Positions 24,315 to 33,228 of a DNA stretch of 64,000 nucleotides are shown here, piece by piece (the stretch's first letter is position 1; the number at the start of each line of letters is the position of its first letter). The DNA is from an uncultured Methylococcaceae bacterium. Lineage in GTDB: Bacteria; Pseudomonadota; Gammaproteobacteria; Methylococcales; Methylococcaceae. Position numbers and translations under genes: made by a program. The stretch spans positions 1 through 64,000 of the forward strand of contig CAIZPP010000185.1 of assembly GCA_903934875.1 (NCBI GenBank). The letters run 5' to 3'. A model generated the notes under the pieces. It made no database searches. It worked only from the letters and a program-made list of their open reading frames with translations, and was not told the origin of the DNA.

Positions 24315-25256
24315 ATGCCTACTGCTGTTTCACTCTTCTCTGGCTGCGGAGGCTCGGATGCCGGAATTATCCGTGTCGGCTTCGATGTGCTTATGGCCAA
24401 CGACATTTTGCCCTATGCCCGCGACGTGTATCTTGCCAATCACGCTGAGACTGACTATCGCTTGGGAGATGTCGCTTCGATTGATACCTTCCCTTCCGCC
24501 GAGCTTTTGGTGGGTTGCTACCCTTGTCAAGGCTTTAGCCAAGGAGGGGTGCGTAAACCTGATAATAAAATCAACAAGCTTTACTTGGAGTTCGCCAGAG
24601 CCTTGACACAGGTCAAACCCAAGTCATTCATCGTCGAAAATGTTTCCGGCATGGTACGGAAGAACTTTCTCCATTTGCTTGAGGACCAGATTAAGGTGTT
24701 TTCCGAAGTGGGTTATCGGGTAAGGGCAGAGGTGTTGAACGCCGCTGATTTTGGCGTAGCCCAAGAACGTCGGCGTATTTTTATTGTGGGTTTACGTGAA
24801 GACTTGGGGCTGGACTACCAATTTCCCACACCGACCCATGGTCCCGACAGAGGGCATCCCTATTGCAATATCCAGCAAGCCATTGGCGATTTGCCAGAAT
24901 GGCCGGAAGGCGAGTTTTACGCTAGGAAATTCCACTGGTACTATCTCTCTCGTGACCGCCGCCGCGACTGGGGTAAATTGTCCAAGACCATTGTTGCCAA
25001 CCCGCGGCACATGCCCTTGCACCCTATGAGTCCACCGTTGCACAAGCTGGAGCATAATGTTTGGCGTTTTGCCTATGAAGGCCGGGCCCGGCGTTTCAGC
25101 TACCGTGAGGCAGCGCGGCTGCAAGGGTTTGGTGATTTGGTGTTTCCCGACACCAAGGCGGGTAGTTTGGATATGCGGTATACCGTGGTAGGTAATGCCG
25201 TGCCGCCACCGCTGTTTGAGGCGGTGGCTAGGGCTTTGCCGGATGTTTGGGATTAG
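24315..25256 (+). CDS. C5-cytosine DNA methyltransferase
   Basis: The 313-aa enzyme methylates cytosine C5 in DNA. Motifs I (SLFSGCGGSDAGIIRVGF), IV with the catalytic Cys (GCYPCQGFSQGG), VI (FIVENVSGM), VIII (AQERRRIFIVG) and X (RYTVVGNAVPPPL) are in order and intact. The target-recognition part between VIII and X is short. It has its own promoter and converges, with a 4-bp overlap of stop codons, on a two-gene operon encoding a nuclease-like and a ParB-like protein. The arrangement suggests the modification half of a restriction-like defence locus. Confidence 0.92.
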   Translation: MPTAVSLFSGCGGSDAGIIRVGFDVLMANDILPYARDVYLANHAETDYRLGDVASIDTFPSAELLVGCYPCQGFSQGGVRKPDNKINKLYLEFARALTQVKPKSFIVENVSGMVRKNFLHLLEDQIKVFSEVGYRVRAEVLNAADFGVAQERRRIFIVGLREDLGLDYQFPTPTHGPDRGHPYCNIQQAIGDLPEWPEGEFYARKFHWYYLSRDRRRDWGKLSKTIVANPRHMPLHPMSPPLHKLEHNVWRFAYEGRARRFSYREAARLQGFGDLVFPDTKAGSLDMRYTVVGNAVPPPLFEAVARALPDVWD

Positions 25257-26173
25257 CTGTATCGAAATGCCTTAACCTCATCTATGAATGGCATGGCTGG
25301 CAGTTGGTCAAGGAGTTTATATTGCGACGCAAGACGCAAAAGGCGCAATCTATCGACGATAATGGCTTGGCCGATGTCACTCTTGTAAGCCCAATCGCCA
25401 TCAGACTCACGCAAATCCAAAGGTAAAAAATAATAAGTAGCCCATGGATGCATAACTGGCAAATGGCGCAAATGTTTAGCCCACGATGCCTCCAGTTGTT
25501 TGAAGCGCCAATCATCTTTTGAACAACCGCATTGTGCAAAGGCGATAGGCATTCCTTCCCGTGAATCTGACATACAATGCCAGGAAATCAAATCAATTCC
25601 ACCATCCCCCCTGTCATTATCCTTGAAATCACGCTGCTTGAAATTGGCTGTGCAGCGAATGTCTTTAGCTATTTCCACCATTTTTTGGTAAAGAGTGCCT
25701 CTATAAGGCGCTTCCGGCCCGCCGTTGGCCCAAGTGGCGCGAATTTCAGAGCCAAACGGCATCAGGCATGAAAATAAAGTAAAGCATATTTGCTCGAATA
25801 TTCTCGCTATTTCACCTTGTCGCTTACTTTTGATGTACCTCATTGATGATGCAATAAGTAGCCCTATGTAAAACTTCTGAGCTGGATTATTGGTATCTAA
25901 GTCTAAGTAGATTGTGTCTTTGTCATCCGATATTTTAAACGGATAGCTTTCCATGTTAAATTCTTTTTGACGTATACCCGAAAAATCAGACATTTCTCTC
26001 CACCGTTTTTCGGAATCGAACCTTTGGCCTACATCATTACAACGATTTTCAATACCAACTAGGTCACCACGAGAGAAGCACTGATCAGGATGTATTAGAG
26101 CATGGAGTTCAGCAAAATCTGTCCATAAAAATGAATCTGTACCTTTTGGCGGTTTGTCCAAAAAATTTAACAC
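25253..26173 (-). CDS. PD-(D/E)XK-like nuclease candidate
   Basis: I do not recognise this 306-aa protein by name. Residues 188-222 read RGDGGIDLISWHC, then PIAFAQCGCSKDDW. The Asp-Gly-Gly-Ile-Asp hairpin followed by a strand ending in Gln, then Lys219, resembles the D...(E/Q)xK core of PD-(D/E)XK restriction enzymes. Glu127 could supply the helix acidic residue. The start is GTG, three bases after the ParB-like gene, so the two are co-translated. Its convergent neighbour is a cytosine methyltransferase, which fits a restriction role. The nuclease assignment is inference from a motif. Confidence 0.6.
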   Translation of the reverse strand: MLNFLDKPPKGTDSFLWTDFAELHALIHPDQCFSRGDLVGIENRCNDVGQRFDSEKRWREMSDFSGIRQKEFNMESYPFKISDDKDTIYLDLDTNNPAQKFYIGLLIASSMRYIKSKRQGEIARIFEQICFTLFSCLMPFGSEIRATWANGGPEAPYRGTLYQKMVEIAKDIRCTANFKQRDFKDNDRGDGGIDLISWHCMSDSREGMPIAFAQCGCSKDDWRFKQLEASWAKHLRHLPVMHPWATYYFLPLDLRESDGDWAYKSDIGQAIIVDRLRLLRLASQYKLLDQLPAMPFIDEVKAFRYS

Positions 26174-26176
26174 AAA

Positions 26177-27262
26177 CTAACCCTCCAATTTATCCCTAAG
26201 ATAGTTGCGAACTGATTTAATTTCTTCGAATAAATCTTCCGCCTGCTGAAGATGTGATTTGCTAAGGGGTTTAATTCTTGGGAGCATATTCCAGATCACT
26301 TTCAATTTACCGCATGCCTCATTCATAGCTTTTTCGAGTGCAGCTTGAGGGCCATCAGTATAAAGGTATGCCTCCGATAGCTTACAAGTCTCCTCAAGTA
26401 CTTTCACCGCCTCCTCGCTTACTACTACCGCAGCCATCTCGTCAAGGTTGCGCGATTCCCCTAAGATCGTCCGGCCTTGCTGATCTTTAGCAAACATCCA
26501 AGAAAAAACTCTTTTTAAGTTTTCTTTTTGAAGACTAGGCATCTCAATATCTGTGCGACTTACAAGCCCGAGCCAATCACAGATATTGGTATAACTTAGA
26601 GCCGTGGTAATATATGAGAACTCAACGTCTTTTGCTTGGATTGGTAGCCCAAAGAATTTAACTTCTTCCGCTTTTGTATAGAGTGCCAATGCCGTTAGCA
26701 ATTGCGCAACATAATCAGGACGACTTCCTATTTCTTTTGCCAAAGAGCGCATTTGCTGTTGCTGTGGCAAATCAGGATAAAAGTCGTTTCGCAATTGGGC
26801 TAGGTATTTTGCCTTAGATAAGGAGTCCCATTGTTTAATTCCTGTGATATGACGATACCCGAGATAACGCAATACATCACGTCGATCCTCGTATAACAAA
26901 CATGGAAGCTCTTTAGGAGGAGTGACCACAACGTCATTTTTAATTTCGCCAATGCTGTTTTTTCGGCGGCTAGGTGGAAGAATTTCACCATTGAGTAATT
27001 TGACTGCCGCAAGCCTCCGATTGCCTTCAATAACAACATAACGGCCATCAGATTCTTTCGACTTTACAACAAGCAGCGGTTCACCTGGAAAATAACCCTT
27101 CTGTCCGATAGAAAGCATCAAATCCTGCACATTTTCATCATCAAGCATTTCCTCAATGACTGCCTGAACATTATGCGCATTGTTGATCCGGTAAAATCTT
27201 GGATTTTCAGGGTCAAAATCAAGTTTTTCCGTCTGGATTATTTCAACGGTTTTGTCAGCCAT
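26177..27262 (-). CDS. ParB/Srx-fold domain protein
   Basis: The 361-aa product has a ParB-like N-terminal domain at about residues 5-95: DFDPENPRFYR, GYFPGEPLLVV and the box EGNRRLAAVKLLNG. A helical region follows with a helix-turn-helix-like stretch (MRSLAKEIGSRPDYVAQLL). ParB-fold domains bind CTP or act as nucleases or switch proteins. There is no parA beside it, so plasmid partitioning is unlikely. The start at 27262 has AAGGA upstream. The only upstream in-frame alternative is a TTG at 27283. First gene of the operon with the nuclease-like protein. Confidence 0.78.
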   Translation of the reverse strand: MADKTVEIIQTEKLDFDPENPRFYRINNAHNVQAVIEEMLDDENVQDLMLSIGQKGYFPGEPLLVVKSKESDGRYVVIEGNRRLAAVKLLNGEILPPSRRKNSIGEIKNDVVVTPPKELPCLLYEDRRDVLRYLGYRHITGIKQWDSLSKAKYLAQLRNDFYPDLPQQQQMRSLAKEIGSRPDYVAQLLTALALYTKAEEVKFFGLPIQAKDVEFSYITTALSYTNICDWLGLVSRTDIEMPSLQKENLKRVFSWMFAKDQQGRTILGESRNLDEMAAVVVSEEAVKVLEETCKLSEAYLYTDGPQAALEKAMNEACGKLKVIWNMLPRIKPLSKSHLQQAEDLFEEIKSVRNYLRDKLEG

Positions 27263-27360
27263 CGGTTTTTTCCTTGAAGTCAAAAAACTCGTTAAACACT
27301 ACCAAATAAGGGGATATTTAGAAAAGCCTTTACAGTTCATACTTAACTTACGTTAATTGG

Positions 27361-29498: not shown

Positions 29499-29711
29499 TT
29501 ATGCAAACATCAAACGTCCACGAGGAGCGGGAATGAAACGACCCAATTCTTGCGCGGTTTGTAACCATTCCTCGATGACAATTTCGGCATTGGTGACAGC
29601 TTCCCGATAACTTGGGCCATCAGCCATGCAGCTAGGCAATTCCGGGACTTCGACGACAAAAGCATTATCGTCCTCACTCCAATAAATGATCATTTCGTAC
29701 TTACTCGGCAT
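29499..29711 (-). CDS. HicB-like antitoxin, no HicA partner seen
   Basis: The 70-aa product has the partial RNase H fold typical of HicB: MIIYWSEDDNAFVVEVPELPSCMADGPSYREAVTNAEIVIEEWL. The start at 29711 (MPSKYEMII) fits the family better than the upstream ATG at 29753. No hicA frame is found on either side: the 316 bp upstream are repeat remnants, and ettA lies downstream. It is either an orphan or a stand-alone HicB-domain regulator. No DNA-binding C-terminal domain is present. Confidence 0.8.
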   Translation of the reverse strand: MPSKYEMIIYWSEDDNAFVVEVPELPSCMADGPSYREAVTNAEIVIEEWLQTAQELGRFIPAPRGRLMFA

Positions 29712-30027
29712 CTTCAACCACAAAAACCCGGATTGCGCCGCAAGCGGCTCCATCCGGGCTACAATGGTTTATTATTCCATAGTTGACAGGCAAAGCGGGA
29801 TGTGTAATCAATTCAGGCGGAATATGACAAGTTGTTAGCCCGTAGGATGTGCTGAGCTTGCGAAGCGGAACAATCGCGACCGATGCGCCTCGTACCTCGG
29901 CGCATCCTACTGCCCTAAGCCCTGCCGGAATGACGTACCCCAAAAAAAAATCGCGAGCCGCTACGCGGCTTAAGACAGTGAACAGCAAAGCAGAGCAACA
30001 GAGTTCAGAGCATCAGTGGTCAGCGGT
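29712..30027. other. Gene-free gap with inverted repeat
   Basis: The stretch has an inverted repeat GTAGGATG to CATCCTAC (29842-29910) and a CATCCGGGCTACA segment shared with family A elements. It lies just downstream of the variable region of the TIR/NTPase/FGE gene, where diversity-generating retroelements often carry their template. No template-like copy of the variable region and no reverse-transcriptase gene was found here. Confidence 0.5.
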
Positions 30028-32811
30028 TCAGGATGGGGGCGACACACCACACACCAACCGAAAGCCGATGCTGGGGCTACGGAAGACAGGATCGAAGAAG
30101 TCGCGGTAGGCGCAACGGGCGCTGACTTGGTTGACGTCCCAGGACCCGCCGCGCAGCACACGCCGGGCTTCGCCCCCCGCTGCGGTTTGCTTCGGCTGGT
30201 CGTATTGGTTCAAACACCATTCCCAGACGTTACCGGACAGGTCCATAACATTCTGTTCGGATTTGCCAGACGGATAAAGGCCTACAGCAAGAATCCGGCC
30301 TAAATTGCTTTCGTAGGTATTGGCTAGGCTCTCGTCCCAATCTGGACCCCAAGGATATTGGTTGTGTGGCTTGCCGCCGGTCGCCGCCTGTTGCCATTCC
30401 CATTCGGTAGGCAGCCTAAGCTCATAACCCAACCGGTTGCTAAGCCATTGGCAGAAAGCCACGGCCTCCACCCAAGCTAAGTTGACTGCAGGTTGGTTGT
30501 CTTGTCCGCGCTGTGCACCCGGTGCGGCCCCGTAAGGCTTACGAACCAGCAAGTCATAACCCTCGGCAGCCTCCACAAAAGCCCGCCATTGGGCCACTGT
30601 GACCGGATATTGCGCCATCTGAAATTCTTGGACTTTGAAGACCGGTTTGGCAGCAAACCGTTTAGTCCAGCCCTTGGCTTCCAATTCCAGAGCCACGTTA
30701 CCGCCGGGGATGGTTTTCCACACAATATCCGGCAAGCCGTCTGCCCTCAGCCCCACGCCGGGGCGGGGGTCGCCGCCAGGTAGCAATGCCAGCCGGTCGC
30801 CTATCATCGCCCGTTCGGCATGGGTTGTGGCGGGATCATCCAAGCGGGTCAGCAGTTCATCCACCGTCAACGGCCCAAGAAACGCCCGTTCAACGGATTT
30901 AACAGGAAAACGGCATTGTAAATCTAGAATGACCGGTGCGGCTTCCAGCATCACGCGCTCGTCGGGCCAGCGGTAAACGGCGGCTTGCTGATGCTCTGCC
31001 CAGGCTTTGGCGGCGCGTTCGATCTCGCGGCGCTGGAAGATTTTTTCCCGATCCCGTTCCAGCCAGCCGCGCAACGTCGGCCAGCGGCGGATCAAGGCTT
31101 CGTGCGCCACTTCCACGGTGTCTTTGCCGCTGCCCGGTTCGTACCCGGTCACCACGAGTCGGGCATCGGCCAGTTCTTTGACGACCGCACGGGCTTCCCC
31201 GCCCTCGCCCAACTCGTCCATGAACACGCGGCGGCGGGTGTCGTCCACCCCTTCGCCCAGTTGCACCAGTTGCAGAAAGATGTCGCGCGCCAAATCGCCA
31301 TGGACTGCTTGCCTGTCTTCAATCTTTGCCAGCACCGCGTCGGCCCGTTGGATGATGGCCCCGGACACCTTGCCTATTGCCTCGTAGCTGAAGTGGCTCA
31401 TTAAGCGGTTTTGCCGGGTTTCATACAAGCGGGTCAGGCAGAATTCCAGCAGCGGCAGCGAACCCGGCTCGCCGGCCAGATCATCCACAATCAGCTTCGC
31501 CAAGCCCTCCTGAAATTCCACGCCTGCAAGCTGGGCGGGTTTTTCGATAGCCTGTTGCAATTCGTCATCGGCCATCGGCCCAAGCATCACCATGCTTTTT
31601 TGCATCTGCTCGCTCAAGCCCCGGTGTTCCAATGCACGGCCCATGAAATCGGCGCGTAGGCTGGCAACCACTTTGAACGATCCCTGTTGCTGTTGGGTTG
31701 CCGCCAATAGCAGGTCGATAAACTGCGAAGCCATGGCGGAGGGGGCTTCCCATACTGCTGAATTAAGGGTCATACGTAGGCCGGAATAAGGTCGTGTAAC
31801 GACCGTTTCCGGCATAGGGCAGGTCAGTTTGCCGGAAACACCCGCTGGAGCGGGCTTATTCCGGCCTACTTCAGTTGCTAGTTCAACAGCATTGGGATGA
31901 AAACCTGTAGCTTGATAGGTGTACAACTCCTCCCATTGGTCAACCACTAGTAGCAGATGGCGTGTACCCGCTTGTTTTTCTAGGATGCGAGCGACGACAT
32001 CGCGCAATTCAATGCTGCCGTGTTGAAGCTCAACTGCCAGTTCGCCAGTCTTGCGCAGCCGGTCAAGTTCGCCCAAATCGGTTTCCAGCAGTGGCAATAA
32101 TACCGCCGCCAGATTATGAAAAGGCCGGTCGCCGGGTATCATCGTGACGATTTCCCAAGGTTCGTGGGTCTCGCGCCGTAACTTTGGCACCAAACCGGCG
32201 CGCACCACGGAAGACTTGCCGCTGCCCGACGGACCCACCAAAAAAACGAAGGAACGGGCTTGCACGGATTTGTGCAATTCGTCTATCGCGCTGTCGCGTC
32301 CAAAGAAGAGTTCGGCATCTTCTTCGCGGAAAAATTGGAGTCCCTTGTAAGGGCAGAGGGTGGACAGGATTTCACGCTGGCGTTCGTGCAGCACTGCATC
32401 GGGCGGTTCGCCACGCACGGCGGCGGCAAGGATGCGCAGAGGCAGGTCTTCGGCTAGACCGGAACGGAAATCCACCCAGGTGTTTTGCTTTAGGAAACCC
32501 AGCGGCGGCTCAGCCCCCGGCAATAGCACCGGGATCACCGCAAAGCCAGTTTCCTTGGCTTGGCGGTCCAACGCGAAATTTTTCTCCCGCTGTTGCCACG
32601 GACCCATTTCCCCTTGGCCTATACACACCGCCACCGCGCCGGAGGCTGAGAGAGCTTGCTCCAATTCCTGCAACCAAGACTGGCCGGCGGTCAGATACCA
32701 GCGGTCAAGGAATACGTGTAGATTTTGCCCACGCAGCATTTCAGCCAGGGCATGGACCTGCACCTGATCGCGCCAGTGATAGCTGAGGAATACATCGTAA
32801 TGCTTAGGCAT
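30028..32811 (-). CDS. TIR-NTPase-FGE protein with retroelement-type variable C-terminus
   Basis: The 927-aa product has three parts. Residues 4-130 form a TIR domain (HYDVFLSYHWRD; Glu76 in PWQQREKNF would be the NADase residue). Residues 155-560 form a STAND/NACHT-like NTPase with Walker A GPSGSGKSS (193-201) and Walker B LLLVVDQWEELY (Asp291). Residues 690-925 form a formylglycine-generating-enzyme/C-type-lectin fold ending GGSW to IGFRLVC. Between GGSW and IGFR, sixteen positions use NNC or NNT codons, the mark of adenine mutagenesis of an AAC-rich template. Residues 315-346 are encoded by a palindromic repeat. TIR-STAND proteins often act in phage defence. This role is inferred. Confidence 0.85.
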   Translation of the reverse strand: MPKHYDVFLSYHWRDQVQVHALAEMLRGQNLHVFLDRWYLTAGQSWLQELEQALSASGAVAVCIGQGEMGPWQQREKNFALDRQAKETGFAVIPVLLPGAEPPLGFLKQNTWVDFRSGLAEDLPLRILAAAVRGEPPDAVLHERQREILSTLCPYKGLQFFREEDAELFFGRDSAIDELHKSVQARSFVFLVGPSGSGKSSVVRAGLVPKLRRETHEPWEIVTMIPGDRPFHNLAAVLLPLLETDLGELDRLRKTGELAVELQHGSIELRDVVARILEKQAGTRHLLLVVDQWEELYTYQATGFHPNAVELATEVGRNKPAPAGVSGKLTCPMPETVVTRPYSGLRMTLNSAVWEAPSAMASQFIDLLLAATQQQQGSFKVVASLRADFMGRALEHRGLSEQMQKSMVMLGPMADDELQQAIEKPAQLAGVEFQEGLAKLIVDDLAGEPGSLPLLEFCLTRLYETRQNRLMSHFSYEAIGKVSGAIIQRADAVLAKIEDRQAVHGDLARDIFLQLVQLGEGVDDTRRRVFMDELGEGGEARAVVKELADARLVVTGYEPGSGKDTVEVAHEALIRRWPTLRGWLERDREKIFQRREIERAAKAWAEHQQAAVYRWPDERVMLEAAPVILDLQCRFPVKSVERAFLGPLTVDELLTRLDDPATTHAERAMIGDRLALLPGGDPRPGVGLRADGLPDIVWKTIPGGNVALELEAKGWTKRFAAKPVFKVQEFQMAQYPVTVAQWRAFVEAAEGYDLLVRKPYGAAPGAQRGQDNQPAVNLAWVEAVAFCQWLSNRLGYELRLPTEWEWQQAATGGKPHNQYPWGPDWDESLANTYESNLGRILAVGLYPSGKSEQNVMDLSGNVWEWCLNQYDQPKQTAAGGEARRVLRGGSWDVNQVSARCAYRDFFDPVFRSPSIGFRLVCGVSPPS
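30070..30138 (-). other. Putative DGR variable region (VR)
   Basis: Read on the minus strand, codons at variable positions are GAC GTC AAC, GTC AGC, TGC, TAC, GAC TTC TTC GAT, GTC TTC and AGC CCC AGC. They are separated by constant Gln, Ala-Arg, Ala, Arg, Pro and Arg codons. All but one of the sixteen end in C and that one ends in T, as expected if each derives from AAC or AAT by A-to-N changes. The fixed codons use all third bases. The region ends at IGFR, 27 bp before the stop codon. Confidence 0.75.
31776..31869. repeat. Family D palindromic element (copy D2) inside a reading frame
   Basis: Perfect 15-bp terminal inverted repeats (GTAGGCCGGAATAAG and complement) bound a 94-bp element with internal pairing (TTTCCGGCA, TTGCCGGAAA). 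It is translated in frame as part of the TIR/NTPase/FGE protein (residues 315-346) and falls after the Walker B strand, where related proteins are contiguous. Confidence 0.75.
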
Positions 32812-33228
32812 GTTGTTCTTATTTCACTGATGTTACGCAACCGCATAGGCAGTACCGGATTGGCTCCATCCGGGCTACAATGCCCCCAGCCGGACGGGAT
32901 TTGTAATCCCGTCCGTAACGTTTTGTAGTTTGGCAAGGCATAGTTGCACACACAAAACGCAAGCGAAGGGGTTGCAAACCCCTTCGCGCTTCGCCAGAAA
33001 CGATAAATATAACCCCGTCATTTTTCGGCAGGGATGCCGAAATCCAGCGACCATGGATGGCAAACTGGTTGATTATGATGGGCTTAAATCCGTTGTCTTG
33101 TTACCGTCCTTGGCCTGGATTTCGGCATCCCTGCCGAAATGACGGCGCTTCGAGCCAAGCTGAAATTGCTGTTAGCGTTCAGTCTCCCTATGCCTTTTCC
33201 TGCGAATAAGGTAATCTTGGTCGCCATT
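32812..33228. other. Repeat-filled 417-bp gap
   Basis: From left to right: half of a family A element starting CTGATGTTACGCAACCG at 32827 (to about 32880); a GACGGGATTTGTAATCCCGTC hairpin near 32894; a hairpin of GCGAAGGGG and CCCCTTCGC near 32963; and a 130-bp inverted-repeat element at 33015-33145. No gene was found. Confidence 0.6.
33015..33145. repeat. Inverted-repeat element with CGGCAGGGATGCCGAAATCC ends
   Basis: The ends read CCGTCATTTTTCGGCAGGGA at the left and CTGCCGAAATGACGG at the right, with 27 or so paired bases including a self-complementary GGCATCCCTGCC. Fragments of the same repeat occur near 13480 and, in a diverged form, near 55651. Non-coding. Confidence 0.65.

Follow-up and report, generated by a model that had tools for sequence, protein, structure and literature searches.

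Is the 3′ end of a gene coding for a TIR–NTPase–FGE protein in an uncultured methanotroph rewritten by a diversity-generating retroelement (DGR), and from where would it be written? The question is raised by a 64,000-nucleotide stretch of DNA (contig CAIZPP010000185.1 of assembly GCA_903934875.1, positions 1 to 64,000 of the forward strand; hereafter, the window) from a Methylococcaceae bacterium of the genus Ca. Methylumidiphilus. A preliminary description of the window, made from its letters alone, placed a retroelement-type hypervariable region at the end of this gene. The analysis presented here favors, with a probability of about 0.88, the reading that a STAND immune-type sensor ends in a DGR variable repeat (VR) that is written in trans. 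The VR is related by adenine-specific differences to a template on another contig, the genome harbors DGR-type reverse transcriptase (RT) and Avd genes along with dispersed targets, and the encoded protein has the domain layout of such a sensor.

Domain organization and codon pattern of the target gene

The target gene (30028..32811, minus strand), delineated by its open reading frame (ORF) and by Pfam, encodes a protein of 927 amino acids with a TIR_2 domain at residues 7-118 (5e-21), an nSTAND1 NTPase at residues 154-609 (4e-113) and an FGE-sulfatase/C-type-lectin-like domain at residues 700-920 (3e-39). The Pfam assignments agree with the TIR, NTPase and FGE make-up proposed earlier and correspond to an N-terminal effector, a STAND NTPase and a C-terminal sensor. 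The PADLOC Avs/STAND models gave zero matches to the protein. The VR was placed in the C-terminal C-type-lectin/FGE domain, 12 codons before the stop codon, and this domain resembles by sequence the solved DGR variable protein TvpA (2y3c; E 1.6e-8).

The region singled out in the preliminary description comprises codons 892-914 (30138-30070), between the GGSW and IGFR blocks. The mutable codons, as defined by the template described below, are 892-894, 896, 897, 902, 904-907, 909, 910 and 912-915 (n = 16), which read GAC GTC AAC GTC AGC TAC GAC TTC TTC GAT GTC TTC AGC CCC AGC ATC. The coordinates and the codon reading were found to be right, all 16 codons being NNC/NNT and 15 of them NNC, as compared with 49% NNY and 31.5% NNC in the remainder of the gene. 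No other stretch of 24 codons in the gene is as rich in NNY as this region. Assuming independent codons and a fixed codon choice, the pattern would arise by chance with a probability of ∼1e-5 (16/16 NNY) or ∼3e-7 (15 NNC). The accompanying statement that the constant codons were of mixed third base needs a small correction, as seven of the eight (CAA GCC CGT TGC GCC CGC CCT CGT) are likewise NNC/NNT. Hence, the argument from codon phase is by itself moderate, and the strong evidence is the comparison with the template.

Comparison of the variable repeat with an AAC-rich template

The genome to which the window belongs (5.41 Mb, 344 contigs) was searched with the VR as query, which yielded a second target together with a near-copy rich in AAC, both on contig C179. 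The near-copy, which the preliminary description had proposed to look for, is a template at C179:295-387 (minus strand); it carries AAC codons where the VR varies and reads GGSW NNN QDN ARCAYR NNN HPDNR NNN. Over 93 aligned bases, the VR and the template showed 20 differences, 17 of them at the 28 template adenines and three at the 65 other sites (P = 9e-9). The 11 adenines of the VR itself were all matched in the template, which gives the direction of transfer as template to VR. In the second target, on C179 (1044 aa; TIR/SEFIR, NACHT and FGE), 17/28 template adenines were changed and 0/65 other sites. The earlier inference of a DGR target is thus substantiated by the template copy and the adenine specificity.

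The VR spans codons 884-915 (30067..30162, minus strand), as defined by template comparison and class-pattern match. The gapless match with the template reaches codon 914 (30070), and the ATC codon 915 was added by inference. Past the last AAC, the three targets of the class have ATC, TTC and GTC as their next codon, as expected from ATC in the parent template. Directly 3′ of the VR lies the conserved block GFRLVCGVSPP (30035..30066, minus strand), a candidate 3′ homing site resembling the initiation of mutagenic homing element. In seven genomes of the genus, the block occurs at the three targets of the class and nowhere else, with 94-97% nucleotide identity in genes that are otherwise diverged. 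The stop codon is followed by a GC-rich hairpin, CCGCGTAGCGG, and a T run (29938..29968, minus strand), found conserved when aligned with two relatives, C179 and the sister-species locus G001:C319. This terminator-like element would also serve as a normal terminator, and it is possibly a candidate for the hairpin after the VR that DGRs require in cis (Guo et al., 2011, PMC3240598).

Comparison with a sister species

G001:C319 carries a TIR–nSTAND1–FGE gene in which 18/28 adenine sites are changed relative to the template and which has the same three non-adenine differences as the window VR. The constant VR codons of the two genes are identical even at synonymous sites and the residues differ mainly at adenines, while DNA identity in the FGE domain upstream of the VR is 45%. 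Identical amino acids were encoded by the same codon in 16/16 cases in the VR versus 18/52 in the remaining FGE domain. As judged from these alignments, ordinary divergence is excluded as the source of the VR differences. Homologues with the same residues and ordinary synonymous divergence had been named beforehand as evidence that would speak against a DGR target; the opposite was seen in G001:C319. The constant-base pattern of the class was present at exactly four loci in the seven genus genomes, and a reversed control gave zero. Another gene, G001:C129 (N-terminus 92% identical, syntenic neighbors), was considered as an orthologue test and set aside, its contig ending at residue 298, short of the VR.

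DGR machinery in the genome and probable action in trans

The genome search for a DGR RT, likewise proposed at the outset, revealed three DGR-type RTs (RVT_1) and two full Avd genes, along with six templates and 14 VRs that match a template. Two RTs are located with Avd (NF033474, over the cut-off) and a template, on contigs C177 and C185. The statement that the window holds no retroelement was accurate for positions 1-64000; on the same contig, C185, ∼5-11 kb beyond the window end, there is a full cassette at 69428-75507 (∼69.4-75.5 kb) with two FGE targets, Avd, RT and an AAC template. The third RT lies with an HRDC protein and is truncated where C229 ends; the corresponding template was located at the start of C166 (C166:379), and C229 and C166 are probably neighbors.

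Together, the 14 VRs showed changes at 208/385 adenines versus 4/863 other sites, three of these four being in the window VR. The VRs on C154, C200 and C289 had no non-adenine differences from the C185 template, and neither did that on C288 from the C177 template. The C288 VR differed at nine such sites from its own neighboring template (the pair is at C288:229 and 1505), an apparent template exchange. Since these VRs match exactly templates on other contigs, action in trans, or exchange of cassettes, is common in this genome. Two further features of the template–VR pairs were observed. Changed adenines became T in 98 cases, G in 87 and C in 23, A-to-C being under-represented. In addition, the protein of 1625 aa encoded at C229:18838-23712 contains four FGE domains and has three VRs in tandem, all three matched by the C166 template at every non-adenine site.

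Parentage of the variable repeat and alternative explanations

Several observations weigh against the reading of the locus as a VR written in trans. The window VR does not agree exactly with an extant template at non-adenine sites (3/65 off C179), having GGC, NNC and GAT where C179 has GGT, AAT and CAT; only one such difference was seen in all 13 remaining VRs with a matching template. The C179 template is without the 3′ GFR block, which is retained by the five other templates of the genome, and a dispersed repeat starts 12-20 bp beyond its last AAC. Neither an RT nor an accessory gene was found on the 4.7-kb (4738-bp) contig C179, which ends ∼0.3 kb past the template. The structure models obtained for the FGE domain, with a predicted local distance difference test (pLDDT) score of 37 from the single sequence and 49 from a six-sequence alignment, were too poor and were left unused.

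The three non-adenine mismatches weaken the claim of C179 as parent and leave the VR status of the region unaffected. As they are common to G001, the C179 template in its present form is rejected as the source of the window VR. The C185 cassette past the window end was also rejected as the writer, its template being of another class (RSGNR versus RCAYR constants). We infer that an earlier form of the template gave rise to both the window VR and its G001:C319 relative; the exact parent would be an older C179 template with GGC, AAC and GAT at the three sites and ATC GGC TTT CGG at its 3′ side, now drifted, lost or unassembled. This parent was not found in the seven genus genomes, which held no template better than C179, and an exact 20-base piece of it retrieved nothing from viral contigs; in a metagenome-assembled genome of 344 contigs, a missing exact template is weak evidence. 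The target–template order on C179 is the same as in G001:C59 and G003:C314, where Avd and RT come next after a target and its sister-class template, and contig C179 stops where Avd and RT are expected. The loss of its GFR block to a dispersed repeat is in the manner of Thiohalocapsa, in which repeat arrays replace DGR parts (Dore et al., 2024, PMC10907252). Dispersed palindromic repeats were observed near targets in several genus genomes, e.g., at 33013-33145 of the window and below position 290 of C179, one copy abutting the truncated template. With the sole template of the class in the assembly drifted at three sites and truncated at its 3′ side, the preliminary description's pair of options, an element working in trans or lost, is still the appropriate one.

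The second of these options corresponds to a frozen former target, in which an ancestral DGR wrote the VR, the C179 template decayed, the RT disappeared and ordinary gene evolution followed. It shares its origin with a VR written in trans and differs on present activity, and we consider it a serious contender at somewhat below even odds. It would account for the three mismatches seen, among the matched VRs, only in that of the window, for the truncated template and for the lack of an RT near C179 when RT and Avd adjoin the sister-class templates in G001:C59 and G003:C314. However, the ORF, the constant VR codons, the 3′ block and the post-stop hairpin are all intact, there is no synonymous drift relative to the sister species, and the three differences, being common to G001, do not represent decay of the VR itself; the exact template may also be missing from so fragmented an assembly.

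It is unlikely that the VR and its 3′ flank were instead copied in by recombination from another target, i.e., by module shuffling and not by mutagenic retrohoming in place. The similarity to C179 and C319 starts at the VR and extends over ∼220-240 bp, including the stop codon and reaching the terminator, and so goes further than the template, as shuffling would produce; yet shuffling alone would not confine changes to template adenines, and a conserved 3′ flank is also expected of a DGR-required cis element such as the hairpin after the VR (PMC3240598). Both processes may have acted. The view of the gene as an ordinary FGE paralogue that evolves fast under diversifying selection, its NNC pattern being due to codon bias, has very little left in its favor beyond the large FGE family of the genus (56 domains in this genome) and the often fast evolution of STAND sensors, as it is refuted by the concentration at adenines of the differences from a non-coding AAC template (P 9e-9) and by synonymous sites that are identical in the hypervariable block within a domain otherwise 45% identical, and the 13 other template–VR pairs make it unlikely that the C179 template is an artefact of assembly.

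Proposed function of the window protein

With a VR written in trans as the preferred reading, a sequence of events may be proposed by analogy with known DGRs (PMC3240598, PMC10907252) and STAND proteins. The DGR RT would copy the AAC-rich template RNA, misreading adenines, and the cDNA would replace the homologous 3′ end of the target gene. The ligand-facing tip of the FGE/C-type-lectin domain would be altered in this manner with the scaffold codons fixed. Such a tip could bind an invader molecule, e.g., of a phage, upon which the STAND NTPase would oligomerize and the N-terminal TIR domain would act as an NAD-consuming or signaling effector stopping the infected cell. An immune function of the window protein is accordingly proposed by analogy with STAND proteins, and the earlier label of an adaptable immune receptor would fit it on the same analogy.

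Two other features of the window were observed. A small HicB-like ORF, recognized by eye only, is situated just downstream of the target gene (29499-29753, minus strand). A C-5 cytosine methylase, a 306-aa protein and a ParB-like protein are arranged in a row at 24315-27283, possibly as a small defense or modification cluster.

Repertoire in the genus

A census resting on retrieved genome regions showed 56 FGE domains in this genome. Five further species of the genus have 27-56 and the seventh has two, as compared with ≤12 in the 31 other genomes of the family. The repertoire of the genus is unusually large, with 27-56 FGE domains together with Avd in six of its seven species. The remaining member, G002, with two FGE domains and no Avd, is a natural contrast to its six sister genomes. 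In the present genome, ∼43 VR-like blocks, some fragmentary, were identified in 40 ORFs; for 29 of them the assembly has no template that matches, and these are VR-like only in their layout. The N-terminal parts of these ORFs include TIR, nSTAND1, NACHT, DUF4062, SIR2, GT4-conflict and caspase domains. A recent preprint reported that DUF4062 is a family of TIR-like NADases active against phages (PMC13174449). At close to an even chance, Ca. Methylumidiphilus may hold one of the largest known DGR-diversified repertoires, in which ∼40 STAND/TIR/SIR2/NACHT/caspase-type proteins would carry exchangeable hypervariable tips served by few templates in trans; a free-living methanotroph would then have a bacterial analogue of a combinatorial repertoire of receptors. 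Among the papers searched, none named both Ca. Methylumidiphilus and DGRs, which does not disprove the existence of one.

Comparison with known systems

With these results, a methanotroph genus joins the bacteria with targeted hypermutation on NLR-like sensors, and targets scattered over the genome are seen to match exactly templates that lie elsewhere in it. If the diversification is borne out, it offers a route to asking whether DGRs give adaptive receptor-based immunity beyond the multicellular bacteria stressed so far.

Other systems share parts of this arrangement. TvpA of Treponema denticola (2y3c) likewise has an FGE-type C-type-lectin domain with the VR at the C-terminus, but it is a surface lipoprotein (PMC10907252) and not a STAND/TIR protein. 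Avs and bacterial NACHT (bNACHT) antiphage proteins have the same tripartite order of effector, STAND NTPase and C-terminal sensor (PMC10907252), whereas their characterized sensors, e.g., TPR, are not rewritten by DGRs. The remote variable proteins of cyanobacterial DGRs (Vallota-Eastman et al., 2020, PMC7517822) are similar in their paralogous C-type-lectin targets away from the RT, signaling-type N-terminal domains and 3′-terminal VRs; they belong to a different phylum, and that study stresses kinases and the tuning of regulatory pathways and counts targets at >50% identity to the template repeat. The systems of Dore et al. (PMC10907252) also have C-terminal C-type-lectin/FGE VRs on NTPase proteins with nSTAND1/NACHT, of which some carry TIR effectors. 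They likewise comprise more than one DGR class per genome, targets remote from the element and served in trans, and loci degraded by repeats or mobile elements. The differences are the Methylococcaceae-type methanotroph lineage, the additional effector types (SIR2, DUF4062, GT4-conflict) and the number of blocks, 15 targets with 21 VRs in that study versus ∼43 VR-like blocks in 40 ORFs here, only 14 of them template-matched. The window target is therefore of a kind already described by Dore et al.; the lineage and the scale are new.
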